Shown here piece by piece: positions 6,813 to 37,590 of a DNA stretch of 60,893 nt; position 1 is the stretch's first letter, and the number at the start of each line of letters is the position of its first letter. Source of the DNA: Tissierellales bacterium (lineage in GTDB: Bacteria; Bacillota; Clostridia; Tissierellales; Dethiosulfatibacteraceae); contig JAFGVC010000107.1 in the NCBI GenBank assembly GCA_016938195.1, positions 1 to 60,893 of the forward strand, in the 5' to 3' direction. Below the pieces are notes generated by a model. That model ran no database searches, had not been told where the DNA came from, and worked only from the letters and a program-made list of their open reading frames with translations. Made by a program: the position numbers and the translations under genes.

Positions 6813-7386
6813 TCTATTGGCTTTTTTATCTTATGTGATTATGACCACCTTTACACCTGGTCCTAATAATATCATGTCTATGTCAAACGCAAGCCGACAC
6901 GGTATGCGAAAGAGTATTGGTTTCAATTTTGGCGTATTTGCCGGGTTCTTAATCATTATTGCATTGAGCAGCTTGTTTAGCGAGATGATTTATCAAATGA
7001 TGCCGTCAGTAAAGCCTTATATGACTTACATAGGCGCTGCTTATATTTTATGGCTTGCGTGGAAGACTTATAAGAGTAAACCTCATGAAGACAATAACGA
7101 AAAAAGAAAAACCAATACCTTTAAAGCAGGGCTGATGCTTCAATTTGTCAATCCAAAGGTGATTCTTTATTGCATTACTATAACGGCAACATTTATCACG
7201 CCTTATTATAACGGCGTGATGGCTATTGCAGGATTTGCGGTGTTTCTAGCATCGGTGGGTTTATTATCTACTTGTGTATGGGGATTGTTTGGGTCTTTAT
7301 TTCAATTATTTCTTGCTAAAAATTACAGGACTGTTAATACCATCATGGCGTTGCTGCTTGTCTACTGTGCAGCTTCTTTATTTTAA
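6805..7386 (+). CDS. LysE-family amino acid exporter
   Basis: A 193-residue LysE/RhtB-type exporter. The N-terminal signature TPGPNN lies in the first helix, about six hydrophobic segments follow, and NPKVILY in the middle is a second family landmark. Proteins of this family export amino acids or related small solutes; the substrate cannot be told from sequence. The open frame starts at 6724, but ATG 6805 gives the normal LysE N-terminus (MPNLLAFLSYV). Its ribosome site is weak (AGAAG), so translation is probably coupled to the overlapping flavodoxin gene. Confidence 0.85.
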   Translation: MPNLLAFLSYVIMTTFTPGPNNIMSMSNASRHGMRKSIGFNFGVFAGFLIIIALSSLFSEMIYQMMPSVKPYMTYIGAAYILWLAWKTYKSKPHEDNNEKRKTNTFKAGLMLQFVNPKVILYCITITATFITPYYNGVMAIAGFAVFLASVGLLSTCVWGLFGSLFQLFLAKNYRTVNTIMALLLVYCAASLF

Positions 7387-7479
7387 GGTTATTTTCAAAA
7401 AAAAGAACCATTTGCGTTTCAAAGTGTTATAATATGATAAAATACATTATTGACATATAATTATCAAAGAGTCAATTGA

Positions 7480-7503
7480 AATTGTTAACATTTTGTAACA
7501 ATT
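7480..7503. repeat. Perfect 8-base inverted repeat before the lactate regulator gene
   Basis: AATTGTTA (7480-7487) and TAACAATT (7496-7503) flank an 8-base spacer and end just before the AAGGAGG ribosome site. This could be an operator or an RNA hairpin controlling access to the start. It does not match the TTGGT-N3-ACCAA box found downstream. Confidence 0.5.
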
Positions 7504-7516
7504 AAGGAGGCCGCGG

Positions 7517-8218
7517 ATGTTTCATGAGGTTATACCGGGGAAAATATATCAGCAAATCAATAAACAGATTCAAGAACTCATATTAGGGGGAGCCTTAAAA
7601 AAGGGAGACAAACTGCCACCTGAAAGACAGCTGGCCGAAGCTCTTAACGTGTCAAGAGCTTCTATACGCGAATCGTTTCGTTCACTTGAAATCATGGGAT
7701 TGATCGAGAGCCGGCCCGGAGAAGGAAATTTTATCGCTAGCTGCGATAATGCCATTATTTTTGAGCCGCTTTCGATCATGTTTAAACTTAATAATGGTAA
7801 GTTTAGAGACATATTAGAAATTAGAATGATACTTGAGGTTGAAGCAGCTGGTCTGGCCGCAGAAAGAATAACAGATGATCAACTCGAATTGCTTCAAACC
7901 TTGATGGAAGACCTTGAACAGAGTGATAATGAAAACCATAGTGTTGAAATTGACAAGAAAATTCACTATCTGATTGCCGAGTCAACGGGAAATTTTCTGA
8001 TTATCACAATGTTGGATGCCATCTCTTCACTAATGACAGATTTCATTGCAAATGCAAGGTTAATTATAGCAAAGAATATTTCAGAGCAAGGCAGGCTTAC
8101 CAAAATCCATAAAGATGTCGTCAAGGCATTATGTCAAAAAAATCCTCGATTAGCTCAGGACGCAATGAGGAGACATTTTTATTCCGTATGGGAAAGCATC
8201 GAAAACGAAGAAATGTAA
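7517..8218 (+). CDS. FadR/LldR-type GntR-family transcriptional regulator of lactate genes
   Basis: A 233-residue regulator. Residues ~8-75 form a GntR winged helix (KLPPERQLAEALNVSRASIRES), and the rest is an all-helical FCD ligand domain with the metal-site pattern of Asp and His residues. It precedes the etf-ldh-lactate permease genes, and two boxes of the PdhR/LldR type (TTGGT-N3-ACC) lie between it and them. The simplest reading is a repressor released by lactate or a related acid, as for LldR and for LctA of acetogens. An AAGGAGG site precedes the ATG, and a terminator follows the stop. Confidence 0.85.
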   Translation: MFHEVIPGKIYQQINKQIQELILGGALKKGDKLPPERQLAEALNVSRASIRESFRSLEIMGLIESRPGEGNFIASCDNAIIFEPLSIMFKLNNGKFRDILEIRMILEVEAAGLAAERITDDQLELLQTLMEDLEQSDNENHSVEIDKKIHYLIAESTGNFLIITMLDAISSLMTDFIANARLIIAKNISEQGRLTKIHKDVVKALCQKNPRLAQDAMRRHFYSVWESIENEEM

Positions 8219-25471: not shown

Positions 25472-26413
25472 ATGATTAAGCTTGCAATTGCTTTGATGCT
25501 TGACCTAATGCTTGGTGACAGATGTTTTTATAGACATCCGGTTATTCTTATTGGTCATGCTATCTCTTATTTTGAGAAAAAGTTTTATGCCTTGTCAAAT
25601 AAAAAATTAGGGGGTCTATTTCTTCTGATTTCTTCATTAGCCTCGGTAGCTTTTACGGTAACGGTTATTGAATTTGTTTTTTCTTTTAATAAGTGGGTCG
25701 AATTTTTGGTGTCGCTTTATTTCATGTATTTGATTCCGTCTGCAAAAACACTTCAAATGTTGACTAATGAAGTTAGAAAAACACTTGAAGCGAATGATAT
25801 CGAGGGTGCCAGAAAAAAGTTATCTTATCTAGTGGGCCGAGATACTATGGTGCTTGACGAGGAAGGTATTTCACGCGCTACTGTAGAGACGATTGCAGAA
25901 AATACGGTGGATGGATTGATTGCTCCCGTATTCTATATCATCATTGGACAGTTTTTTGGCTATGGTTTGTTGTTTGGATATTTATATAAGACAGTCAATA
26001 CACTGGATTCAATGGTAGGTTATAAAAATAAAAAATATATTGATTTTGGTTATTTTTCGGCTAAAACAGATGATGTTTTAAATTTTATTCCGGCTAGAAT
26101 AGGAAGTTTAATCATGATTGGATCAGGATTTTTATTAAGATATGACTGGAAGCATGCTTTGAAAATATTCATGCGAGATCGCAAAAATCATAGCAGTCCA
26201 AATTCAGCACATCCTGAAAGTGTTGTTGCTGGGCTTTTGAATATATGTTTAGGCGGTAGTAGCCGTTATTTTGGAAATGTGGTCGAAAAACCATACATTG
26301 GAGAAGCTAATAGAAAAATACAGCCTAAAGATATTGATTTTACAAATAATATTCTTATAGCAACTGATTTTATTTTAATTGGAATTGTGCTTGTGGGAGG
26401 CTTGATATGTTGA
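25472..26413 (+). CDS. cbiB: Adenosylcobinamide-phosphate synthase (CbiB/CobD type)
   Basis: A 313-residue membrane protein with four to five hydrophobic segments and the family motifs DLMLGDR near the start, AENTVDGLIAPVFY and NSAHPESVVAG. It joins aminopropanol phosphate (or a related linker) to adenosylcobyric acid. A TTG at 25466 is in frame, but ATG 25472 has GAGG seven bases upstream. It overlaps the next start codon by 7 bases, so the three cob genes are translationally coupled. Confidence 0.92.
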   Translation: MIKLAIALMLDLMLGDRCFYRHPVILIGHAISYFEKKFYALSNKKLGGLFLLISSLASVAFTVTVIEFVFSFNKWVEFLVSLYFMYLIPSAKTLQMLTNEVRKTLEANDIEGARKKLSYLVGRDTMVLDEEGISRATVETIAENTVDGLIAPVFYIIIGQFFGYGLLFGYLYKTVNTLDSMVGYKNKKYIDFGYFSAKTDDVLNFIPARIGSLIMIGSGFLLRYDWKHALKIFMRDRKNHSSPNSAHPESVVAGLLNICLGGSSRYFGNVVEKPYIGEANRKIQPKDIDFTNNILIATDFILIGIVLVGGLIC

Positions 26414-27426
26414 ATAGAATGCATGGGGCAAATCCTGAAAAAATATATGCTGACCTTGGAATTAAAATGCCTGAGCGTATCATTGATTTTAGTACAAATA
26501 CAAATGTAGTTCCTTTTAAATCATTTGAGCCGATGGAAATTCAATCTCTGGTTTCATCGTACCCCGATGATGAATGTCTAGAGCTAAAATCAATTATTTC
26601 TCAAAGAGAAAATTGTGAGATCAATCGGATAATGGTTTGTAACGGCACCAACGAATTTATTTATTTAATAGCTTCATTAAAACAATACAAGAGAGTGGCT
26701 TTGCTTCACCCGCTATATTCTGAATATGAGAGAGCGCTGAAGGCCTATAATAGAGAAATCCTTCATTTATATTCAGAGGAAGAGATAGGTCATCTTACTG
26801 ATGTTAATTTGTTATATATATGCAATCCAAACAATCCTACGGGAAAAAATATGAGCGAACAGAAAATAAGAGAAATTATTCATTTATGCAAGAAAAAGCG
26901 AATAGACGTTGTCATTGATGAAGCCTATTCTTTTTTTCTGCAAAATGAAAATAATACGGGCCGTCTGATTGAGGGCTATAATAATCTATATATTATGAAA
27001 TCTTTAACAAAGATTTACAATCTTTCAGGTATAAGAATTGGATATATCTTATCTTCAAAGGAAAAAATTGAAGCCCTGCATGTCGTTCAACCTACTTGGA
27101 GCGTCAATGCGCTAGCTCAAAAGCTTGCTATGATGTATTTAAAAGAGGAGGATTATCTAATGCAAACCAAGGCATATTATCGTAATGAGTACAAATGGTT
27201 TGTAGCTGCTATTCATTCAATTGGTTACGAGACAACGCCTTCAGACACTAATTTTTTTCTTATGAAGGTCAAAAACGACGAAGCCTTTATATTGGGGATG
27301 TTAAAAAAAGGTATTGTGGTAAGACATACTAGAAATTTCAAGACATTGTCAGGAAAATATGTTAGAATAGCTATAAAAACACGAGAAGAAAATGAAATTT
27401 TTATAGAGGCTTTAAAAGGACTATGA
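26407..27426 (+). CDS. cobD: Threonine-phosphate decarboxylase (CobD-like aminotransferase fold)
   Basis: A 339-residue PLP enzyme of the histidinol-phosphate aminotransferase family. The N-terminal HGANP motif and DFSTNTN segment are features of CobD/CobC. ICNPNNPTG binds the cofactor, the PLP aspartate is in VIDEAYSFF, and the Schiff-base lysine is K202 in SLTKIYNLSGIRIGY. It would make the (R)-1-amino-2-propanol phosphate linker for CbiB from threonine phosphate. Histidinol-phosphate aminotransferase is the alternative, but context favours corrinoid synthesis. Confidence 0.88.
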   Translation: MLNRMHGANPEKIYADLGIKMPERIIDFSTNTNVVPFKSFEPMEIQSLVSSYPDDECLELKSIISQRENCEINRIMVCNGTNEFIYLIASLKQYKRVALLHPLYSEYERALKAYNREILHLYSEEEIGHLTDVNLLYICNPNNPTGKNMSEQKIREIIHLCKKKRIDVVIDEAYSFFLQNENNTGRLIEGYNNLYIMKSLTKIYNLSGIRIGYILSSKEKIEALHVVQPTWSVNALAQKLAMMYLKEEDYLMQTKAYYRNEYKWFVAAIHSIGYETTPSDTNFFLMKVKNDEAFILGMLKKGIVVRHTRNFKTLSGKYVRIAIKTREENEIFIEALKGL

Positions 27427-27455
27427 TTGACAATAAATTAACAATATGTTATTAT
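27427..27455 (+). promoter_or_regulatory. Strong sigma-A promoter of the DRTGG/hydrogenase-like operon
   Basis: TTGACA (27427-27432), 17 bases, TATTAT (27450-27455). It begins right at the cobD stop and gives the following signalling genes their own transcript. Confidence 0.75.
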
Positions 27456-27492
27456 TTTAACAAAGTAATCGTTGAAGTTAATGGAGGCAATC

Positions 27493-27858
27493 ATGAAAGT
27501 ACATGAAATAAGAGAGTTGTTGAATGCTAAGCTGTATGTCGGCGAGGGGCTTTTAGATAAAGAGATTATTGGCGCATATGCATCGGATTTGATGAGTGAT
27601 GTTTTGGCTTCAAATTATTTGGATGAAAAAGCGGTTTTAGTATCGGGTCTAAACAATGTCCAGTTGATAAGAACGGCTGAAATGTTAGATTTATCCGTAA
27701 TCGTCTTAGTCAGAGGCAAAACCCCCCATCCGGAGGTGGTCGAAATGGCAAGAGAGAACGGAATAGCACTGATGACAACAACCCTCAATATGTATAATTC
27801 TTGTGGAATATTGTATGCTCAAGGAGTGAAGGGTTTTAGCAATGAGAGAGCTGATTAA
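27493..27858 (+). CDS. DRTGG-domain protein 1
   Basis: A 121-residue protein that is almost only a DRTGG domain, a small regulatory fold found beside CBS domains and in phosphotransacetylase-like proteins. It opens with EIRELLNAKLYVGEGLLDKEI and ends in a TTTLNMYNSCGILY segment. No catalytic motif is visible. ATG 27493 with GGAGG five bases upstream is preferred over in-frame codons at 27472. It overlaps the ATPase gene by 17 bases. A paralogue lies four positions further at 29535. Such proteins are often encoded beside [FeFe]-hydrogenase genes in clostridia; a ligand-sensing or partner-binding role is inference. Confidence 0.75.
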   Translation: MKVHEIRELLNAKLYVGEGLLDKEIIGAYASDLMSDVLASNYLDEKAVLVSGLNNVQLIRTAEMLDLSVIVLVRGKTPHPEVVEMARENGIALMTTTLNMYNSCGILYAQGVKGFSNERAD

Positions 27859-28267
27859 ACGATATGTGTTTCAGGTTCAGGCAAACGATTTCGATAATGC
27901 GGGAGCTGCATCTAGCACCATAAAAAGAAACTTGAAGACAATAGCTATAAATCCAAGTATTGTAAGGAAAGTAGCGGTGGCTTCTTATGAGGCGGAGATA
28001 AATATTATTATCCATTCAAATGGCGGCGAGATGGTGCTTGAAATTTACGAAGATATGATTTCAATTAAAGCCAATGATAAAGGTCCTGGCATCCAGGATG
28101 TCGATTTAGCGATGTCAGAAGGGTTTTCTACTGCATCCAATGCGGCAAGAGAATTGGGCTTTGGAGCGGGCATGGGTCTTCCTAACATAAAAAAATATTC
28201 TGATAATTTTAAGATTACTTCAAATGAAAAAGGAACCCGACTAACGATAGATATTATGATTGAATAG
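27842..28267 (+). CDS. RsbT/RsbW-like anti-sigma-type ATP-binding protein
   Basis: A 141-residue GHKL ATPase of the serine-kinase/anti-sigma type. The N-box analogue is in VASYEAEINIIIHSNGG, G1 is NDKGPGIQDVDLAM, and a G2-like loop is GFGAGMGLPNIKKYSD. It could phosphorylate a partner protein or bind a sigma factor, but no anti-anti-sigma or sigma gene is next to it. Its place directly before the hydrogenase-like gene, with 11 bases between, suggests a sensor-output role. The function is inferred from family and context. Confidence 0.8.
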   Translation: MRELIKRYVFQVQANDFDNAGAASSTIKRNLKTIAINPSIVRKVAVASYEAEINIIIHSNGGEMVLEIYEDMISIKANDKGPGIQDVDLAMSEGFSTASNAARELGFGAGMGLPNIKKYSDNFKITSNEKGTRLTIDIMIE

Positions 28268-28278
28268 AGGTGGAAGAT

Positions 28279-29535
28279 TTGCAGAGAGCTTTTGATTTAG
28301 ACGTTGATAATTGTAAAGGTTGTACCAACTGTATGAGAAAATGCCCGACTGAAGCCATTAGAGTAGTAAATAATAAAGCAATCATCAATGACGATAAGTG
28401 TATCCACTGTGGAGAATGTATTAGAGTTTGTCCATATAATGCCTATCATGCCATTTCAGATAAGATTCAAAAGATTAACAAAGAAAAATTTTCCGTGGCT
28501 ATTCCATCTATTGCAGTTTACGGCCAATTTCATTTAGGAACTGAAGTCTGTAAGATTCATCATGCCTTATTGGCACTAGGCTTTGATTATGTCTATGATG
28601 AGACTTGGGGAGCGGAATTAGCTGCAAAAGCACTCATGAAAAAATTGAATGAAAGCAAGACGCCGAAGCCTGCCATTAATTCCAATTGCCCTGCGGTTGT
28701 TCGACTAATTAAGGTAAAATATCCTTCTTTAATGGACCATATTCTTGAAATTCAAACGCCGATGGAGATTTCAGCTATACTTGCCAGAAGAAAAATCAAA
28801 GAGATTTTTGGCTTGGAAGGCAATGAAATAGAGGTCTATTATATATCGCCTTGTCCGGCTAAATCGATTAGTGTTCATCGTCCAATTGGAACAAATCATT
28901 CAAATATCAATAAAATTATTTCTTTAAAGGAAATATACGGTGATTTAGTCAGAGAAATGAAAATCAAAAAGGAATTATGTACATCCACCCCTTCTAAAAC
29001 AGGATTAAAATGGGTTCTGTCCGGGGGACAGTGTGAAGCTGCATGTATAGAAAACAGTATCGCCGTATCCGGACTTGAAAATGTGATGAATATTCTTGAT
29101 GAAATTGAAATTGGAAAACTGGACCACATTGATTTTATTGAATTAATGTCATGTAACGAGAGCTGTGTGGGAGGTCCATTCAATTTTGAGAATCCCTTTG
29201 TAGCTAAGAATAATATAAATTACATTATTAAAAACACAGAAAATTCTCTTATTCTTAATGATGATTTGGATAAATTTGAGCAACTATATGATGAGGGGTT
29301 CTTTGACTCGGACATTAAACTAATCAGAGATCATCAGAGTCACCATACAAGTCTCAAAGAAGCAATAAAAAAACTTGAAGAAGTGGAAAAAGTGTATCAT
29401 AGCTTACCGAAGCTTGACTGTGGATCATGTGGAGCACCAACTTGCAGGGCATTAGCAGAGGATATAATTGACGGACTGAAAACAATAGACGAGTGTGTTA
29501 TATTAAAGGTAAAAAATAACGGGAGCAAATCATAA
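28279..29535 (+). CDS. [FeFe]-hydrogenase-like (HydS-type) iron-sulfur protein, putative redox/H2 sensor
   Basis: N-terminal double 4Fe-4S ferredoxin (CKGCTNCMRKCP, CIHCGECIRVCP), then an [FeFe]-hydrogenase H-domain, then a C-terminal RnfB-type FeS motif (CGSCGAPTC...C). Counting from the TTG start, H-cluster ligands map to C137 (SNCPA), C192 (SPCPAK), C292 and C296 (MSCNESC), and K195 of the L2 motif is kept. The usual proton-relay Cys of TSCCP is Asn136. Such changes mark the low-activity sensory groups (C/D). TTG 28279 is chosen over GTG 28270 because GAGGTG lies six bases before it. The next gene overlaps by one base. Confidence 0.85.
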   Translation: MQRAFDLDVDNCKGCTNCMRKCPTEAIRVVNNKAIINDDKCIHCGECIRVCPYNAYHAISDKIQKINKEKFSVAIPSIAVYGQFHLGTEVCKIHHALLALGFDYVYDETWGAELAAKALMKKLNESKTPKPAINSNCPAVVRLIKVKYPSLMDHILEIQTPMEISAILARRKIKEIFGLEGNEIEVYYISPCPAKSISVHRPIGTNHSNINKIISLKEIYGDLVREMKIKKELCTSTPSKTGLKWVLSGGQCEAACIENSIAVSGLENVMNILDEIEIGKLDHIDFIELMSCNESCVGGPFNFENPFVAKNNINYIIKNTENSLILNDDLDKFEQLYDEGFFDSDIKLIRDHQSHHTSLKEAIKKLEEVEKVYHSLPKLDCGSCGAPTCRALAEDIIDGLKTIDECVILKVKNNGSKS

Positions 29536-29864
29536 TGAAAATAAGTGAAATAAGAGAAACACTGAAGTTAACTGACGCAATAGCATGTAAATCGGATAAT
29601 GAGGTACAAGGTGTTTACATAGGCGATTTATTAAGTCTAGTTATGGCAAAAGCAAAGCCGGCAGATTTATGGCTTACGATACAGACGCATATCAATATAA
29701 TTGCTGTGGCCGATTTGATTGAAATAAGTGGTATTGTGATCTTGGAAGACATGGCCATAGATGAAGACACCTTGCAAAAGGCTGTTGAAATAGGAATTCC
29801 TATTTTCAGAACAAAATTATCGGCTTATGAAATGGCTTGCCAGCTACATGACTTAGGGCTGTGA
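29535..29864 (+). CDS. DRTGG-domain protein 2
   Basis: A 109-residue DRTGG-domain protein, a paralogue of the one at 27493. The same opening pattern KISEIRETLKLT is followed by GVYIGDLLSLVMAKA and the closing IFRTKLSAYEMACQL. Its first base is the last base of the hydrogenase-like gene's stop codon, and its own stop overlaps the PHP start, so all three are made together. No enzymatic motif is seen. Two DRTGG proteins in one operon might form a heteromer. Confidence 0.75.
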   Translation: MKISEIRETLKLTDAIACKSDNEVQGVYIGDLLSLVMAKAKPADLWLTIQTHINIIAVADLIEISGIVILEDMAIDEDTLQKAVEIGIPIFRTKLSAYEMACQLHDLGL

Positions 29865-30550
29865 TGAAGTTTTATTATGATTTTCACATTCATTCAGACC
29901 TTTCTCCTTGTGCCGATGGTGAGATGACGCCAAACAATATTGTAAAAATGGCTAAACTTAAAGAATTAAACATTATTTCCGTAACAGACCATAATGCAAT
30001 CGACAATTTTCCGGCACTAGAAAAAGTAGCTTATCAAGAAGGGTTGTATATTTTGCCTGGGATCGAAATTACTGCCAGAGAAAATGTTCACTTGCTCGCT
30101 TATTTCAGAGAATATGAAGAGGCTAAAGGTGTCGCTGATATTATATACGCGCATCTTCCAAACATAAAAAATAAACCTTCTATCTTTGGAGAACAAAATA
30201 TTTATGATGAAAACGACGTCAAAACGGACCACTTGGAGAAGTTACTGATAAATGCAACGGATTTATCGATTAAAGAAATTACATCTTTAGTCTCCGGAGC
30301 TAATGGCATTTTGATTCCGGCACATGTTGATAAAATATCTTATGGCATAATTGGGGTACTTGGATTTATACCAAAAGCCTACTCTTTTAGATATATCGAA
30401 GTGTTTAACAAAAAAATGACTGAGGATGGTCTTGAACAGTATGAAATATTGCATAACTCTGATGCACACAAGCTAGCGGATATATCTGAAGCCGAAAATT
30501 TTCTAGAGGGAAATGACATTGAGGATATAATGAAAAAGCTAGGTCTATAA
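29864..30550 (+). CDS. PHP-domain phosphoesterase
   Basis: A 228-residue PHP protein. Metal-binding motifs are FHIHSDLSPCADG near the N-terminus, VTDHNAIDNF, PGIEITARENVH and a late LHNSDAHKL. This is the full metal-site set of a small PHP hydrolase such as a histidinol-phosphatase or nucleotide phosphatase. The substrate is unknown. In this operon it could turn over a signalling molecule or phosphoprotein; that is inference. ATG 29864 overlaps the preceding TGA by one base. A weak hairpin with a T run follows the stop. Confidence 0.85.
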   Translation: MKFYYDFHIHSDLSPCADGEMTPNNIVKMAKLKELNIISVTDHNAIDNFPALEKVAYQEGLYILPGIEITARENVHLLAYFREYEEAKGVADIIYAHLPNIKNKPSIFGEQNIYDENDVKTDHLEKLLINATDLSIKEITSLVSGANGILIPAHVDKISYGIIGVLGFIPKAYSFRYIEVFNKKMTEDGLEQYEILHNSDAHKLADISEAENFLEGNDIEDIMKKLGL

Positions 30551-30577
30551 AAAAGGAATTCGTTAGTTCCTTTTTTT
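30549..30577 (+). terminator. Weak terminator after the PHP gene
   Basis: AAAAAAGGAA (30549-30558) pairs with TTCCTTTTTT (30567-30576) across an 8-base loop, ending in T residues. The stem is mostly A-U, so it may only reduce read-through into the next gene. Confidence 0.5.
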
Positions 30578-30645
30578 ATTAAAAAAAATTAAGGAGAGCC
30601 ATCCAACTCTGTCATTAAGAGGATCATTGGGTTAAACTTAACAAA

Positions 30646-31194
30646 ATGAAAGAATTATCATTGCATATACTTGATATTGCGCAAAATTCAATTGAAGCGA
30701 ACGCTACATTAATAGAAATAAATATAAATGAAGATATCCTAAACAATAAACTGAGTATTGTGATTCATGATAATGGCCACGGCATGACAGAAATTGAAAC
30801 TGAAAGGGCAATTAATCCTTTTTATACGAGCCGATTGACCAGAAAAATTGGATTAGGTATCCCATTGCTTAAAAGCGCAGCTGAAAGATGCAAGGGTTCC
30901 TTTACCATTCAATCAACTCTTCATGTTGGGACCATAGTTAGTTGCGAATTCGAATACAATCATATCGATCGTGCACCAATCGGAAAAATTGAAGACACCT
31001 TATTGGTCTTGCTTAATAGTGCGGAAAAGGTTGATATCCATTATACGCACAAGTACAATAATCAGGTATTTCAATTTGACACGAGGGAAATAAAGAAAAT
31101 TATGGAGGGCACATCGCTTGCTAATCCTGATGTTCTTATGTGGATCAAGGAATACATCAAGGATCATATTGTTGCAATAAAAAGTAATGCTTAA
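30646..31194 (+). CDS. GHKL ATP-binding protein associated with hydrogenase/Rnf genes
   Basis: A 182-residue HATPase_c protein without any dimerisation/phosphoacceptor domain. The N-box is LHILDIAQNSIEAN, G1 is HDNGHGM and G2 is RKIGLGIPLLKSAAE. The last ~70 residues are extra and unrecognised. Similar proteins are encoded with electron-bifurcating hydrogenase genes in clostridia, where they are often called histidine-kinase-like. There is no proper ribosome site before the ATG (AAGAGGA is 24 bases away), although the N-terminus MKELSLHILDIAQNS fits the family. It lies between the PHP gene and the rnf operon. Confidence 0.75.
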   Translation: MKELSLHILDIAQNSIEANATLIEININEDILNNKLSIVIHDNGHGMTEIETERAINPFYTSRLTRKIGLGIPLLKSAAERCKGSFTIQSTLHVGTIVSCEFEYNHIDRAPIGKIEDTLLVLLNSAEKVDIHYTHKYNNQVFQFDTREIKKIMEGTSLANPDVLMWIKEYIKDHIVAIKSNA

Positions 31195-31206
31195 TGCGTA
31201 AATTAG

Positions 31207-31236
31207 TTAACATATTTTTTAGATATATGATATAAT
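31207..31236 (+). promoter_or_regulatory. Sigma-A promoter of the rnf operon
   Basis: TTAACA (31207-31212), 18 bases, TATAAT (31231-31236). The rnf genes can thus be transcribed separately from the upstream signalling genes. Confidence 0.7.
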
Positions 31237-31305
31237 TGATTGTCTAATTCTGTATACAATAAACATAGCCAGTATGAAACTAATAAACAAGAGGTGATTT
31301 TTTTA

Positions 31306-32631
31306 ATGAGCAAGGTAGGGTTAACGTTTAAAGGCGGTATTCATCCACCGCATTTTAAAGGACAGACAGAACATAAAGCCATTGAAGCAGCTCCTGTTCC
31401 AAAGGTTGTTGTCATTCCTTTAGTTCAACACATAGGCGCTCCGTGCGAAGCATTGGTGAGTAAAGGCGATCAAGTGAAAGTAGGACAAAAAATCGGAGAA
31501 TCAAAAGGATTTGTTTCAGCGCCGATACACGCCAGCGTCTCAGGAAAGGTAGTAAAAATAGAAGCAAGACCGACACCGTCTGGGTCTAGGATTAATAGTA
31601 TTATTATTGAGACGGATGGGGAACAAACAATCGATGAAAGTGTCAAACCAAGGGGAAGTCTTGACAGCTTGTCACCGAATGATATTAAAGCCATTATAAA
31701 AGATAGTGGTATCACAGGTATGGGTGGTGCCGGATTTCCTACACATGTAAAATTGAGTCCTCCCCAGGAAAAAAACATTGATATCGTCATTATCAATGGG
31801 GCAGAATGCGAGCCTTATTTAACCTCCGACCATCGTATAATGCTTGAAATGCCTGAAAAAGTTTTGTTTGGTACAAAAGCCGTCATGAAAGTCTTGGGTG
31901 TTAAAAAAGGAATTATTGGAATCGAGGCTAATAAACCTGATGCCATTGAAACGATGAAAAAAGCGGCAGAAAATGAGCCGGAAATAGAAGTTGTACAGCT
32001 TCAGACGAAGTACCCGCAAGGTGGAGAAAAAAGTCTAATTTATGCTGTGACAAAGCGCGAAGTACCTTCCGGTGGCTTGCCGATGGACGTGGGTGCTGTG
32101 GTTCAAAATATTGGTACGGTTGTGGCAATAAGTGATGCTATCCAAATAGGAATGCCGGTCGTTGAAAGAGTGGTTACAATTACGGGAAGCGCTGTAAAAG
32201 AACCTAAGAATTTAATGGTGAAAATAGGCACAAGCTTCAGAGATGTGATTGAATATTGTGGTGGTTATTCCGAACATCCCGCAAAATTAATTAATGGCGG
32301 TCCGATGATGGGAATTGCTCAATATTCAGACGACGTGCCAGTTATTAAAGGGACTTCCGGAATACTGATTCTTAATGAGGATGATGCTAAAACGCCTGAA
32401 GCTTCAAATTGTATTAGATGTGCAAAATGTGTTGATATTTGCCCAAGTGGATTACAGCCTCTTACAATTAGCAAGTTTTCACTTTTAGGAAAATTTGAAG
32501 AAGCTGAAGCTTTTAATGCGATGGACTGCATCGAATGCGGATCTTGTTCTTTTGTATGTCCTTCGAAGAGACCATTGGTTGATTCTATCCGAATAGCAAA
32601 AAAAGAAATCTTAGCTAAAAGAAAAAAGTAG
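31306..32631 (+). CDS. rnfC: Rnf complex subunit RnfC
   Basis: RnfC of 441 residues, the peripheral subunit that exchanges electrons with NAD(H) through FMN and two 4Fe-4S clusters. It opens with the lipoyl-like KGGIHPPHFKG segment. The NADH/FMN region has GMGGAGFPTHVKL and NGAECEPYLTSDHR, and the two C-terminal clusters are CIRCAKCVDICP and CIECGSCSFVCP. The reading frame reaches 22 codons further upstream, but ATG 31306 has GAGGTGA eight bases before it and gives the normal start. It is the first gene of the rnfCDGEAB order typical of clostridia and acetogens. Confidence 0.95.
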   Translation: MSKVGLTFKGGIHPPHFKGQTEHKAIEAAPVPKVVVIPLVQHIGAPCEALVSKGDQVKVGQKIGESKGFVSAPIHASVSGKVVKIEARPTPSGSRINSIIIETDGEQTIDESVKPRGSLDSLSPNDIKAIIKDSGITGMGGAGFPTHVKLSPPQEKNIDIVIINGAECEPYLTSDHRIMLEMPEKVLFGTKAVMKVLGVKKGIIGIEANKPDAIETMKKAAENEPEIEVVQLQTKYPQGGEKSLIYAVTKREVPSGGLPMDVGAVVQNIGTVVAISDAIQIGMPVVERVVTITGSAVKEPKNLMVKIGTSFRDVIEYCGGYSEHPAKLINGGPMMGIAQYSDDVPVIKGTSGILILNEDDAKTPEASNCIRCAKCVDICPSGLQPLTISKFSLLGKFEEAEAFNAMDCIECGSCSFVCPSKRPLVDSIRIAKKEILAKRKK

Positions 32632-32650
32632 AGGGGAGGCAGTAAGATTT

Positions 32651-33598
32651 ATGGAAAATAAAATGATAGCATCTTCATCACCGCATATTCGTTCAACAGA
32701 TACGACGACATCGGTTATGCTTGATGTATTGATAGCACTAATACCCGCTTTAATTGCCAGCATGTATTACTTTGGTTTTAAAGCTATGCTCGTAGTAGCT
32801 TTGTCAGTGGGCTCAGCGGTAGGTACAGAAGCAGCTATTCAAAAGCTTACAAAAAAGAGAGTCACCATCAATGACTTAAGCGCAGTGGTTACAGGCTTAT
32901 TATTGGCATTTAATTTACCGGTTTCCGTTCCTTGGTGGATACCAGTCATAGGTTCGGCTGTGGCTATAGCCATTGGCAAACAGGTTTTTGGAGGCCTAGG
33001 CAATAACTTTATTAACCCCGCTTTAGCCGGACGTGCTTTTTTAGTAGCTTCATGGCCGGTTGAAATGACCTTCTGGACGACTCCGGGTGCACTTACTGAT
33101 ACAATTGCCGCGGCAACGCCATTGGCTATGCTGAAGACATCTTCTCCAGCTTTGTCTCCATTATCCGATGTTTTTTTAGGTAGAATACCGGGCTGTTTAG
33201 GTGAGACTTCAGCTATTCTTTTGCTCTTAGGTGGCGCATATTTGATTTATAAAAAAGTAATTTCTTGGCGGATTCCGGGAACTTATATCGCAACGGTAGC
33301 TATCATAGCCCTAATAACCAACGGATTTGACTTTACGGGGATGGCTTACCATGTTTTTGGAGGAGGATTGATGATTGGCGCTATTTTTATGGCAACTGAT
33401 TATTCTTCTAGCCCAGTGACACCTAAAGGTAAAATCATTTTTGGCATAGGCGCCGGAGTTCTGACTATGCTGATTAGATTATATAGTAGCTCCGCTGAAG
33501 GGGTTTCATATTCCATATTATTTATGAATGTAGCAACACCGTTAATTGAAAAATATACCGCTCCAAGAGTATTTGGTACTGGGGGTGTAAAAAAATGA
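32651..33598 (+). CDS. rnfD: Rnf complex subunit RnfD
   Basis: A 315-residue integral membrane subunit with eight to ten hydrophobic segments. The N-terminal SSSPHIRS motif and the covalent-FMN region around AAATPLA (the conserved Thr of the S-G-A-T type motif) fit RnfD/NqrB. The GNNFINPALAGRAFL segment is also diagnostic. It takes part in sodium or proton translocation coupled to ferredoxin:NAD+ electron flow. It overlaps the rnfG start by four bases. Confidence 0.94.
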   Translation: MENKMIASSSPHIRSTDTTTSVMLDVLIALIPALIASMYYFGFKAMLVVALSVGSAVGTEAAIQKLTKKRVTINDLSAVVTGLLLAFNLPVSVPWWIPVIGSAVAIAIGKQVFGGLGNNFINPALAGRAFLVASWPVEMTFWTTPGALTDTIAAATPLAMLKTSSPALSPLSDVFLGRIPGCLGETSAILLLLGGAYLIYKKVISWRIPGTYIATVAIIALITNGFDFTGMAYHVFGGGLMIGAIFMATDYSSSPVTPKGKIIFGIGAGVLTMLIRLYSSSAEGVSYSILFMNVATPLIEKYTAPRVFGTGGVKK

Positions 33599-34698
33599 AA
33601 AATGAAATTGTTCGATTAGGAATAATACTCTTTTTAATTACAGCTATAGCTGCAGGCATACTAGCTGTATCAAATGATATTACAGCCGAGATTATTGTAA
33701 AGACCGAAGAGGAAGCGAGTTCAGGACCAGAGGTAGCCGGAGCTGTGATTCCCGGAGCAGTGAAATTTGAAGCGTTAGACGCTGAAATTATTTCGAAAAT
33801 TGCGGCAGCCAACGAAAAATTTGTAGATGCTAAAATTGTGCTTGATTCTGCTGGAAAGCAGCTAGGATATGCTATCAGAACATTGAGCGTAGTGCCTGGG
33901 TACGGCGGAGATATGGAATTGTATGTGGGTCTGTCTATGGATGGCAAGCTTGAAGGAATCAAGGTTTTAGCGCTCCAAGAAACACCTGGTTTAGGAACTA
34001 ATGTTGAAAAGAAATCATTCCAGGACCAATTTGTTGGAAAGACGTCAGATATGGTATTGCAAGTGGTAAAAGTTCCTTCATCCAATGAGAATGAAATCAA
34101 TGCACTTGCAGGCGCTACTTTTTCAACTCTTTCATTTACAAGTGCTGTCAATAATGCCATGTCTATATACGAAAACTTTATAAAGCAAGGATCAGATGCT
34201 TCTGAAATCGAAGCTGAAAAGGAATTAACTGAAGCCGAAATGGCGGCACTATTGGTGCCGAATGGTTTTAGCTTTGAAGCGGTGGATAGTGCTTTGCTTG
34301 AAACCATAAAATTGACAAACGAGAAATTTATAAATCTTCAAATGGTTAAAGATGAAGCTGGGAATCACGTAGGATATGCGATTTCTACACTGAGCCAATC
34401 AAAAGGCTATAATGGAGATATGGAAATTACCGTTGGCATTGACTTATCTGATTTGATTACCGGAATAATGGTTGATAAAACAAATGAAACCCCGGGGTTA
34501 GGGACGAAAGTTGGAGAAAAGGAATTTAAGGGTCAATTTATTGGAAAAGAGTCGTCTAATCAATTTAAGATTGTATTAAACAATGCATTTTCTGATGAAG
34601 AAATTGACACGGTTGCAGGAGCGACAATGTCATCTAATTCTTTTACGAGTGCTGTCAACAATGCCTTGTCAATCTATGCTGAATTTATAAAAAAATAA
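33595..34698 (+). CDS. rnfG: Rnf complex subunit RnfG with two tandem FMN-binding domains
   Basis: A 367-residue protein, almost twice the usual ~200 residues. One N-terminal membrane helix is followed by two copies of the FMN-binding domain. Copy 1 ends in AGATFSTLSFTSAVNNAM and copy 2 in AGATMSSNSFTSAVNNAL. In both, the Thr of the GAT motif is the expected site of covalent FMN attachment. Shared features in each copy include the ETPGLGT segment and GY(G/N)GDME. A charged linker (~residues 200-225) joins the copies. The gene sits in the normal rnfG position; no flavin transferase gene (apbE) is nearby. It would pass electrons on the outer face. Confidence 0.92.
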   Translation: MKNEIVRLGIILFLITAIAAGILAVSNDITAEIIVKTEEEASSGPEVAGAVIPGAVKFEALDAEIISKIAAANEKFVDAKIVLDSAGKQLGYAIRTLSVVPGYGGDMELYVGLSMDGKLEGIKVLALQETPGLGTNVEKKSFQDQFVGKTSDMVLQVVKVPSSNENEINALAGATFSTLSFTSAVNNAMSIYENFIKQGSDASEIEAEKELTEAEMAALLVPNGFSFEAVDSALLETIKLTNEKFINLQMVKDEAGNHVGYAISTLSQSKGYNGDMEITVGIDLSDLITGIMVDKTNETPGLGTKVGEKEFKGQFIGKESSNQFKIVLNNAFSDEEIDTVAGATMSSNSFTSAVNNALSIYAEFIKK

Positions 34699-34710
34699 GG
34701 AGGGTGAGAT

Positions 34711-35307
34711 ATGGATTATTTAAAAATATTTAAAAACGGTTTAGTGGATGAAAACCCTACCTTTGCTCAATTGCTAGGCATGTGTCCGACTCTTGCCGTT
34801 ACGACTTCGGCAATTAATGGAATGGGCATGGGTCTTGCAACAACAACGGTTTTAATTGGGTCAAATCTTGCAATATCTTTATTGAGAAAGGTAATACCTG
34901 ATAAAATTAGGATTCCGGCTTTTGTGGTTGTCATTGCAACCTTTGTTACAATCATTGATATGTTTATGCATGCCTATGCCTTTGATTTGTACAAATCATT
35001 GGGTTTGTTTATCCCTCTAATAGTTGTAAACTGTTTGATTTTGGGAAGGGCGGAGGCCTATGCTTCTAAAAATTCTATTGTTCCTTCCATTGTGGATGCA
35101 GTCGGTATGGGTTTGGGTTTCACGATTGCTTTGACTGTTCTGGGTGCGATTCGAGAAATTTTGGGAGCAGGAAGCATTTTTGGATTCAATATGCTGGGTG
35201 AAGCTTTTAAACCGGTATTGGTTATGATATTACCGCCGGGAGCGTTTCTTGCTTTGGGACTGTTGATCGGACTGGTCAATGTGATTTCCAAAAAGAAACC
35301 AGCCTAA
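34711..35307 (+). CDS. rnfE: Rnf complex subunit RnfE
   Basis: A 198-residue membrane protein with six hydrophobic segments, homologous to RnfA and Nqr[21 protein letters not shown] at the N-terminus and the cysteine in this segment are typical; with RnfA it holds an intramembrane iron-sulfur site in solved relatives. AAGGAGGGTGA precedes the ATG. It is followed by rnfA after 15 bases. Confidence 0.94.
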
Positions 35308-35322
35308 ATGGGAGGTAAATAG

Positions 35323-35898
35323 ATGGGATTGTTTAGTATATTTATGGGCGCGGCACTAGTTAACAATTATGTGCTGTCAAAATTTTTAGGAATCTGTCCT
35401 TTTTTGGGAGTTTCTAAAAAAGTAGACACTTCATTGGGTATGGGCATAGCGGTAACTTTTGTTATGACGCTAGCCTCAATCATTACATATCTTGTACAAG
35501 TTGCGGTTCTCGAACGATTGGGACTGCAATATCTTCAGACCATAGCCTTTATTTTGGTCATAGCCGCTTTAGTTCAGTTTGTAGAAATGTTTTTAAAGAA
35601 GTCAAGTCCTTCGTTATATGAAGCGCTAGGTGTTTATCTTCCTTTGATTACAACGAATTGTGCGGTTTTAGGTTTAGCGATTATCAATATTCAGGAAGGC
35701 TATAATCTTCTTGAAACCATTGTGAATTCTTTAGGAGCAGCCATAGGATTTACAGTAGCCATTGTGCTGTTTGCAGGAATTAGAGAAAGACTCGAAACAG
35801 CAGATGTACCTGAAGCTTTAAAAGGATTTCCGATAGCTCTGATAACCGCGGGTTTGATGTCTATTGCCTTTTTAGGTTTTTCAGGTTTGTCATTATAG
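35323..35898 (+). CDS. rnfA: Rnf complex subunit RnfA
   Basis: A 191-residue membrane protein with six hydrophobic segments, homologous to RnfE with inverted topology. The N-terminal [19 protein letters not shown] contains the conserved Cys, and the TTNCAVLG segment carries the second. Together with RnfE it forms the central cation and electron path of the Rnf complex. A GGGAGG ribosome site lies before the ATG. The next gene, rnfB, starts 12 bases on. Confidence 0.95.
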
Positions 35899-35910
35899 GA
35901 GGTACGCGAG

Positions 35911-36882
35911 ATGAATGTATTAAAAGCAGTGGGAGCACTCGGAGCATTGGGGCTTGCTTTTGGAGTGATTTTGGCTTTCGCGTCAAAAGTGTTTCATGTA
36001 GTGGTTGATCCGAAAATTACACAAGTAAGAGAAGCATTGCCGGGAGCCAATTGCGGTGCATGTGGTCTACCGGGATGTGACGCATTAGCCAAAGCGATTG
36101 CAGCAGGAGACGCACCAATCACAGCCTGTCCGGTAGGTGGTGCATCAACGGTCGAGGCTATCAGCAAAATTATGGGTATTGAGGCATACGCCGGTGAAAA
36201 AATGGTGGCGCGTGTTTTATGTAAAGGAAATTATGACAGAACCAATAAAAAATATATTTATCAAGGGATTATGGATTGTAAGGCTTCGGCAATGATTCAA
36301 GGCGGAGATAAAGCTTGTGAATATGGCTGTTTGGGAAATGGTTCTTGTCAGGCTGTTTGTCCATTTGATGCAATTCATGTGGTGAATGGTGTTGCAGTTG
36401 TTGACCCGGAAAAATGTACAGCTTGCGGAAAATGCATTGTGGAATGTCCGAAACATATTATCGAGCTCGTTCCTTATAAGCAACAGGTTGTTGTAGATTG
36501 TTCAAATCATTTATTTGGAAAAGCGGTCAAGGATGATTGTAAGGTGGGTTGCATAGGATGCAAAATATGCGAAAAAGCATGCCCGTTCGATGCTATCCAC
36601 GTTGTAGATAATATTGCCAGGATTGATTATGAAAAATGTACAAACTGCATGGTATGTGCTGAAAAATGCCCTACTAAGGCCATTACTGCATTACTTGAAG
36701 ATAGAAAAAAAGCTTATATTTTACCGGATAAATGTATTGGTTGCACGATTTGTGCAAAGAATTGTCCAGTTCAGTGTATATCCGGAGAGCTTAAGCAATT
36801 ACATGTAGTTGACGAAGAACATTGTATCGGATGCGGTGTCTGCTATGAAAAGTGCCCTAAGGATGCCATTATTATGAAATAG
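35911..36882 (+). CDS. rnfB: Rnf complex subunit RnfB, polyferredoxin
   Basis: A 323-residue ferredoxin-accepting subunit. It has an N-terminal membrane helix (residues ~1-28), then the RnfB FeS motif CGACGLPGC...C, then six further four-cysteine motifs arranged as three ferredoxin-like pairs (for example CTACGKCIVECP, CIGCKICEKACP, CTNCMVCAEKCP, CIGCTICAKNCP, CIGCGVCYEKCP). By motif count it could carry seven 4Fe-4S clusters. It takes electrons from reduced ferredoxin. It is the last rnf gene and is followed by a strong terminator. Confidence 0.94.
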   Translation: MNVLKAVGALGALGLAFGVILAFASKVFHVVVDPKITQVREALPGANCGACGLPGCDALAKAIAAGDAPITACPVGGASTVEAISKIMGIEAYAGEKMVARVLCKGNYDRTNKKYIYQGIMDCKASAMIQGGDKACEYGCLGNGSCQAVCPFDAIHVVNGVAVVDPEKCTACGKCIVECPKHIIELVPYKQQVVVDCSNHLFGKAVKDDCKVGCIGCKICEKACPFDAIHVVDNIARIDYEKCTNCMVCAEKCPTKAITALLEDRKKAYILPDKCIGCTICAKNCPVQCISGELKQLHVVDEEHCIGCGVCYEKCPKDAIIMK

Positions 36883-36893
36883 AAAGATAGGTT

Positions 36894-36926
36894 AACCGCC
36901 TTCCAAAATTAGGAAGGTGGTTTTTT
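36894..36926 (+). terminator. Terminator of the rnf operon
   Basis: AACCGCCTTCC (36894-36904) pairs with GGAAGGTGGTT (36912-36922), one G-U-type mismatch, followed by a T run. Confidence 0.85.
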
Positions 36927-37083
36927 ATTATAAAGAATTTTTAGAAATTTGTTTAGTATTTATAAACTAATTACTTATATTAAAATATTAAGTTTAAAAT
37001 AATCGAAAAATACAGGCTAAAAACATTCAAAACACTATGTTTCAAAGTGATTTACAATAATTAAAAAAATATCAAAAACACTA
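36927..37083. other. AT-rich gap between rnf and speD
   Basis: No gene is present. It is almost entirely A/T, with two similar stretches TCAAAACACTAT (near 37028) and TCAAAAACACTATT (near 37071). Nothing else is recognised. Confidence 0.3.
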
Positions 37084-37111
37084 TTGACTTTTCATGAAAT
37101 AATGTTATATT
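37084..37111 (+). promoter_or_regulatory. Sigma-A promoter of speDE
   Basis: TTGACT (37084-37089), 16 bases, TATATT (37106-37111). Confidence 0.65.
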
Positions 37112-37167
37112 TAGTATTGTTAAATTAAATGATTAGTTTTACTAAACTTATGATAGGGAGGATTGAA

Positions 37168-37590
37168 ATGAAAACTGAACAATTGGGAAGACATATCCTT
37201 GTTGAATACTACAACTGTGACGAGGATATTTTAAATAATCATAAGCTCATTGAGAAATTAATGGTTGACGCTGCAAAAAAAGCAAAGGCAACAGTTGTTG
37301 AGAGTGTATTTCACATGTTTAATCCGTACGGAGTCAGTGGCGCCGTCGTTATATCCGAATCACATCTGACCATACACACGTGGCCTGAATTTGGATATGC
37401 GTCGGTGGACTTGTTTACTTGTGGCAGTCACGTAAATCCTTGGATTGCATTTGATTATTTGTTGGAAGGACTTAAGGCTGAGAAAAGTGAATCAACAGAG
37501 ATTGCGAGAGGTATGGTTGACAAAATCAGAAGGTATTCAAATAAAGATTTAGGGAATATCACTTATAAGCCTGAAGAAGAGATAGCGTAG
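37168..37590 (+). CDS. speD: S-adenosylmethionine decarboxylase proenzyme
   Basis: A 140-residue bacterial-type AdoMet decarboxylase. The self-cleavage site is in [12 protein letters not shown]: cleavage between E64 and S65 turns S65 into the pyruvoyl group. The downstream FTCGSH holds the catalytic Cys and His. The product, decarboxylated AdoMet, feeds the spermidine synthase encoded next. The frame extends upstream to 37129, but ATG 37168 follows GGGAGG by six bases and gives the usual [12 protein letters not shown] start. Confidence 0.95.

Follow-up and report, generated by a model that had tools for sequence, protein, structure and literature searches.

A six-gene cassette centered on an [FeFe]-hydrogenase-like protein (HydS) lies directly upstream of the rnf genes in a Tissierellales bacterium and most of its HydS-bearing order-level relatives, and there is, in our estimate, about an even chance that HydS acts there as a redox sensor that uses Fe-S clusters and passes its signal to a GHKL/DRTGG/PHP relay near rnf, a reading that is favored over H2 sensing. 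A more specific version, in which the rnf-linked HydS is a diiron-less descendant of a hydrogenase and a pure ferredoxin redox sensor on a new type of phospho-relay controlling electron flow through Rnf, is a serious candidate that falls a little short of even. The cassette corresponds to one already known, that of the group D (M2e) sensory hydrogenases, which is usually located upstream of hydABC. Within the open-access literature searched, the wide conservation of the rnf linkage, the natural fusions, and the loss of diiron-pocket residues appear to be new; the rnf linkage was previously noted once, in Vallitalea (PMC6163223).

The window analyzed here, a stretch of 60,893 nucleotides, is from contig C6 of a 2.5 Mb genome (G000) with 97% completeness, and the six cassette genes and rnfCDGEAB are all on one strand (forward). 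The cassette promoter at 27427-27455 (TTGACA-17-TATTAT with TG before the -10 element) was recovered with 11 of 12 consensus matches, and a cob-type aminotransferase gene is directly upstream of it. The first gene, drtA (27493-27858), encodes a DRTGG-domain protein (PF07085, 28.4 bits, 1.5e-6, above the cut-off) starting from an ATG preceded by GGAGG, and overlaps by 17 bases with the rsbW-like gene (27842-28267), which encodes a GHKL ATPase of the SpoIIAB/RsbW type (Pfam HATPase_c, 1e-7, and HATPase_c_2, above cut-off; top NCBIfam match spIIAB, 8.8e-12, under the family cut-off). The gene hydS (28279-29535; PF02906, Fe_hyd_lg_C, 1.1e-32; PF04060, 1.8e-12) begins at a TTG behind AGAGGTGG, a start that was upheld over the GTG at 28270 because this GTG lies inside the ribosome-binding site; HydS residue numbers are nevertheless counted from GTG 28270. 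It is followed by drtB (29535-29864), encoding a second DRTGG-type protein that is below the PF07085 threshold in the window (18.5 vs. 25.2 bits) and exceeds the cut-off in the relative L103, by php (29864-30550), encoding a PHP-domain phosphoesterase (PF02811, 40 bits, 6e-10), and by ghkl2 (30646-31194), encoding a second GHKL ATPase (PF02518, HATPase_c, 3e-11, above cut-off). The identities of the six open reading frames and their overlapping arrangement agree with the original prediction, as does the location of rnfC, rnfD, rnfG, rnfE, rnfA, and rnfB (31306-36882; open reading frames, with rnfC matching TIGR01945 at 579 bits) directly after the cassette.

A single promoter had been proposed to drive the chain through ghkl2. 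This was not borne out in the window, where the 95-base gap between php and ghkl2 contains a terminator-like 12 bp hairpin followed by a T tract (30549-30576; predicted RNA fold of -9.6 kcal/mol, z -2.4), and a promoter-like site with 11 of 12 consensus matches is located upstream of rnfC (31207-31236). In relatives, php and ghkl2 are mostly within ~50 bases of each other or overlapping and ghkl2 is ~100-340 bases from rnfC, so that rnf looks like a separate unit. No riboswitch or structured RNA was found by Rfam within 26000-37500. Just downstream of the rnf promoter-like site is the palindrome TGTATACA (31251-31258), a candidate rnf operator that has a single copy in the window and occurs in 17 of 29 rnf-upstream regions of the same type (vs. 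0.36 expected) and in none of 28 drtA-upstream regions. The palindrome presumably resembles GntR-type operators, and nothing usable on this site was found in the literature searched. Within the rnf genes, RnfG (33595-34698) has 367 residues, approximately twice the 197 of L036, with an apparent tandem repeat of the FMN-binding region, and a long RnfG is also found in L034, L035, and L055.

This set of six genes, with rnfC after it, was found in 24 of the 25 HydS-bearing neighborhoods at the order level, nearly all of which also have rnfD and rnfG within the contig, and the gene-order survey suggested with the original prediction is in this way borne out. Exceptions among the order relatives are L054, which lacks rnf, and L059, a second HydS copy standing alone; across the rnf-linked relatives, HydS identity is 38-68%. 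At the level of the phylum, HydS was found in 160 of 398 sampled genomes. A wider survey comprised 186 HydS loci, and among the 153 with enough flanking sequence for cassette counts, drtA is present at 123, the rsbW-like gene at 139, drtB at 127, php at 129, and ghkl2 at 109. Because the six-gene order recurs across the order and is largely preserved across the phylum, the cassette is more than a chance association. Downstream of the cassette there is usually hydB/hydA of a bifurcating hydrogenase, elsewhere rnf, and sometimes both. The order in T. wiegelii (L102) is drtA-rsbW-hydS-drtB-php-ghkl2-hydC-hydB-hydA, and published tables agree with this cassette before hydCBA (PMC3561251, PMC8163306). 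At three loci (L124, L138, and L156), hydC-hydB without hydA is located between ghkl2 and rnfC, possibly an intermediate between the hyd-linked and rnf-linked forms. At L036, a transporter-like gene (6922-7857; DMT type by eye) is located between php and ghkl2, and ghkl2 still adjoins rnf.

HydS consists of two N-terminal 4Fe-4S motifs, an H-domain, and a C-terminal [4Fe-4S] domain, and no PAS domain was found in the window protein by Pfam. Its AlphaFold model (pLDDT 88) has the hydrogenase fold, with Z scores of 28-33 against solved hydrogenases (33 to CbA5H and 31.3 over 353 residues to CpI, 4xdc). Alignment places the four H-cluster cysteines at C140, C195, C295, and C299 and the L2 lysine at K198, as had been read from the sequence alone. 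These four cysteines are kept in all 186 HydS proteins, and those of the C-terminal Cx2Cx4Cx16C motif (C384, C387, C392, and C409 in the window) in 185; E289 of TamHydS is retained in the window HydS as well. In a tree of 94 rows built by a quick method, the window HydS is inside group D and nested, within a larger set supported by an SH-aLRT of 95, among rows linked to hydABC, T. wiegelii being one of them, and the group C outgroup is far outside, with an end branch of 4.9 changes per column.

The window HydS shares its domain order, the C-terminal Cx2Cx4Cx16C, the lack of a PAS domain, E289, and, as in T. wiegelii, the flanking cassette with TamHydS, the group D (M2e) protein of Thermoanaerobacter (PMC8163306, PMC10407848). 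It differs from TamHydS by E252 to Q254, D265 to S267, A137 to N139, and the P231 equivalent to Ile (TamHydS numbers at the pocket motifs being those of the window HydS minus two), and its cassette is located by rnf rather than by hydABC. The H-domain fold, cubane cysteines, domain order, and tree position are those of group D, whereas the relay residue, Glu in that group, is Gln. TmHydS of T. maritima, a group C (M2f) protein, is similar in having lost the group A relay cysteine, in the sensory role proposed for it, and in the regulator genes nearby (PMC10055695), but the window HydS has no PAS domain and is distant from group C in the tree.

The replacement of the proton-relay cysteine of the TSCCP motif by asparagine is confirmed (N139, codon 28684-28686, at the position of CpI Cys299 and TamHydS A137). 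This change by itself is no proof of a sensor; in most group C/D enzymes, Ala occupies this position (PMC10407848). The group D proton relay, residue 252 of TamHydS (Q254 in the window, codon 29029-29031), is Glu in 141 (“E type”) and Gln in 43 (“Q type”) of the 186 proteins, and in TamHydS, substitution of E252 lowers the activity strongly (PMC10407848). The Pro231 equivalent, present in the solved enzymes aligned, is found in 140 of the 141 E-type vs. 4 of the 43 Q-type proteins, and the Ala230 equivalent is also mostly lost in the Q type; in the window, the pair corresponding to CpI A230-P231 is S80-I81 (28507-28512). At the CpI Cys299 position, 28 of 29 rnf-only Q loci have L, N, H, Y, F, or M, and 70 of 74 hydB/A-linked loci have A or S. 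A scan of all positions identified only seven sites that are conserved in the E type yet changed in the main Q clade (59, 80, 81, 110, 111, 191, and 254 in window numbering), including A230, P231, and E252, the last by definition of the groups. CpI A230-P231 presumably lines the diiron site, and no literature on P231/A230 at this site was found among the open-access papers searched.

The two types are distributed by genomic context: loci with rnf alone are 29 Q and 1 E, those with rnf and hydB without hydA are 3 Q, those with rnf and hydBA are 16 E, and those with hydB/A alone are 69 E, 3 Q, 1 A, and 1 D. For the three Q loci with hydB/A alone, the contigs end within 5 kb and rnf could therefore follow. 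On the tree, the Q type amounts to three changes, and one clade of 39 rows, with a modest support of 89, holds nearly all of it; hence the rnf link is essentially one event plus two hints, without independent replication. With three changes and two independent pairs on the tree, the association between context and residue was dropped as independent evidence.

None of the maturases HydE, HydF, and HydG was found above cut-off in the window genome. They were also undetected in eight cassette-bearing order relatives (G003, G006, G007, G004, G020, G025, G034, and G038) and in G001, an rnf-bearing genome without the cassette HydS. In family f55, none was above cut-off either, and the three genomes searched there encode no PF02906 protein other than HydS, whose L2 lysine is replaced by Gln. 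The last five of the eight relatives encode further H-domain proteins whose motifs are canonical, and the absence of maturases may therefore be a detection or binning problem. With canonical hydrogenases kept, and with 11 of the 73 E-type loci supplied by HydF-less genomes, this absence was dropped as stand-alone proof. Pocket deviations are commoner where HydF is absent at the remaining loci of the E/D type (7 of 12 HydF-absent vs. 5 of 62 HydF-present cases, counted by eye with no correction for kinship). Canonical group A/B/C hydrogenase motifs (L286-L298) were also observed in genomes at 97-99% completeness without detectable HydE, HydF, or HydG, reflecting either another maturation route or missing DNA. 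The window genome encodes two A. woodii-type HydA proteins with a TSCSP motif (L061 and L062, on C147 and C34); this motif was rejected as a sign of H-cluster loss because A. woodii HydA1 (7q4v), which we take to be an active enzyme, has TSCSP too.

Natural fusions join HydS to the products of its neighboring genes. At L247, a single open frame of 601 residues encodes both the RsbW-like ATPase and HydS, and at L190 and L204, a DRTGG domain is appended to HydS and drtB gives no match of its own at either locus; the Pfam domains were found in the fused proteins checked, and the three frames have no ambiguous bases. These fusions suggest that the GHKL ATPase, HydS, and the DRTGG proteins touch or form one complex. 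They also suggest a way in which a HydS without a PAS domain could pass on its signal, a question raised in the literature for group D HydS proteins (PMC8163306). The RsbW-like protein has the GHKL serine-kinase fold with the N-box Glu and Asn, and E50, N54, and H58 of the N-box are invariant in all 174 sequences, while the PHP residues H9, H11, D43, H44, E69, H77, H155, D201, and H203 are kept in nearly all of 157. Both DRTGG proteins have an invariant Ser, which was set aside as a phospho-site because DRTGG domains in general may have it. The partner-switching modules (SpoIIAB/RsbW, STAS, PP2C) likewise contain a small, kinase-like GHKL ATPase in which the N-box Glu and Asn are conserved, but neither an STAS anti-anti-sigma partner nor a PP2C phosphatase was found among the six cassette genes by Pfam and NCBIfam, and DRTGG and PHP proteins are in their place. 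The RsbW-like ATPase of L234 (9773-10681) is fused to two CBS domains identified by Pfam. CBS pairs usually bind adenine nucleotides, and the pair on this protein hints at an adenine-nucleotide input.

In the mechanism proposed here, HydS would retain the cubane [4Fe-4S] site of the H-cluster along with three accessory [4Fe-4S] sites, and the diiron pocket of the rnf-linked form would be remodeled, probably with no [2Fe] subsite and no H2 turnover. The clusters may report the reduction state of ferredoxin, and HydS, in physical contact with the RsbW-like ATPase and the DRTGG proteins, would have its state relayed by kinase or partner-switch chemistry, which the PHP enzyme may reset by dephosphorylation or by hydrolysis of a nucleotide signal. 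The output of the relay would tune electron flow through the adjoining Rnf (ferredoxin:NAD+ oxidoreductase). From the features described above, we infer that the diiron site has been lost, that ferredoxin is the input, and which way the signal runs; cassette control of rnf, the putative target, is suggested by position.

The sensory-hydrogenase reading in the original prediction stands as far as a sensory-type fold with kinase-like and phosphoesterase-like partners is concerned, whereas H2 sensing as put forward there is only partly supported, and it is the altered pocket together with the missing maturases that leads us to prefer an Fe-S redox sensor. A genuine group D H2 sensor, with a full H-cluster tuned for binding over turnover and an H2-responsive control of Rnf, is rather unlikely. 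Such a sensor would fit the architecture and fold shared with TamHydS, which is active if slow (PMC8163306), the retention of all four cubane cysteines and K358, and the fact that HydF-positive genomes supply 18 of 30 Q-type loci. Regulation of rnf by H2 has also been proposed for Vallitalea guaymasensis L81, where a putative sensory hydrogenase and a histidine-kinase-like gene are directly by rnf, although this is a single genome and the protein was called HydDB group C1 and read as an H2 sensor (PMC6163223). However, the rnf-linked clade is without P231, A230, and E252 and has bulky residues at position 299, and HydE, HydF, and HydG are undetected in the window genome and the eight cassette-bearing relatives.

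That HydS is instead a remnant with a structural or scaffold role, in which this Fe-S protein would serve cluster delivery or electron transfer to Rnf and not signaling, is quite improbable, since it occurs together with a pair of GHKL ATPases, a pair of DRTGG proteins, and PHP, is also found by hydABC or by neither, and has partners with conserved catalytic residues. The constant rnf neighborhood is consistent with a remnant, as are the C-terminal Fe-S domain of HydS (PF04060), which belongs to a family also found in RnfB, and RnfB-family matches. The eukaryotic Nar1/IOP1 (CIAO3) provides a precedent as a diiron-less hydrogenase homolog with a proposed cluster-trafficking role, which has an H-domain with a cubane site but no [2Fe] in vivo, in an organism without maturases; unlike HydS, it acts in cytosolic Fe-S assembly and has no kinase cassette (PMC12621388). 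We give limited credence to the cassette being a general redox or energy regulator that acts elsewhere, with its rnf synteny merely inherited. The promoter and candidate operator of rnf, unrelated to the cassette, point in this direction, along with L054 and L114, where the six genes have no adjoining rnf, and family f55, where the cassette is present with no rnfC above cut-off, but the linkage is kept in nearly all order relatives despite the divergence of HydS, and ghkl2 stays beside rnf even with the insertion in L036.

For PAS-less group D HydS proteins, the fusions point to the RsbW-like ATPase and to the DRTGG protein as the likely signaling partners, which makes the question of their output testable with three proteins. 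If the diiron site has truly been dropped, the rnf-linked clade would be a bacterial counterpart of Nar1. The same cassette with and without H2 chemistry would then offer a natural contrast between H2 and redox sensing, and the clade would provide a candidate regulator of Rnf across many anaerobes.
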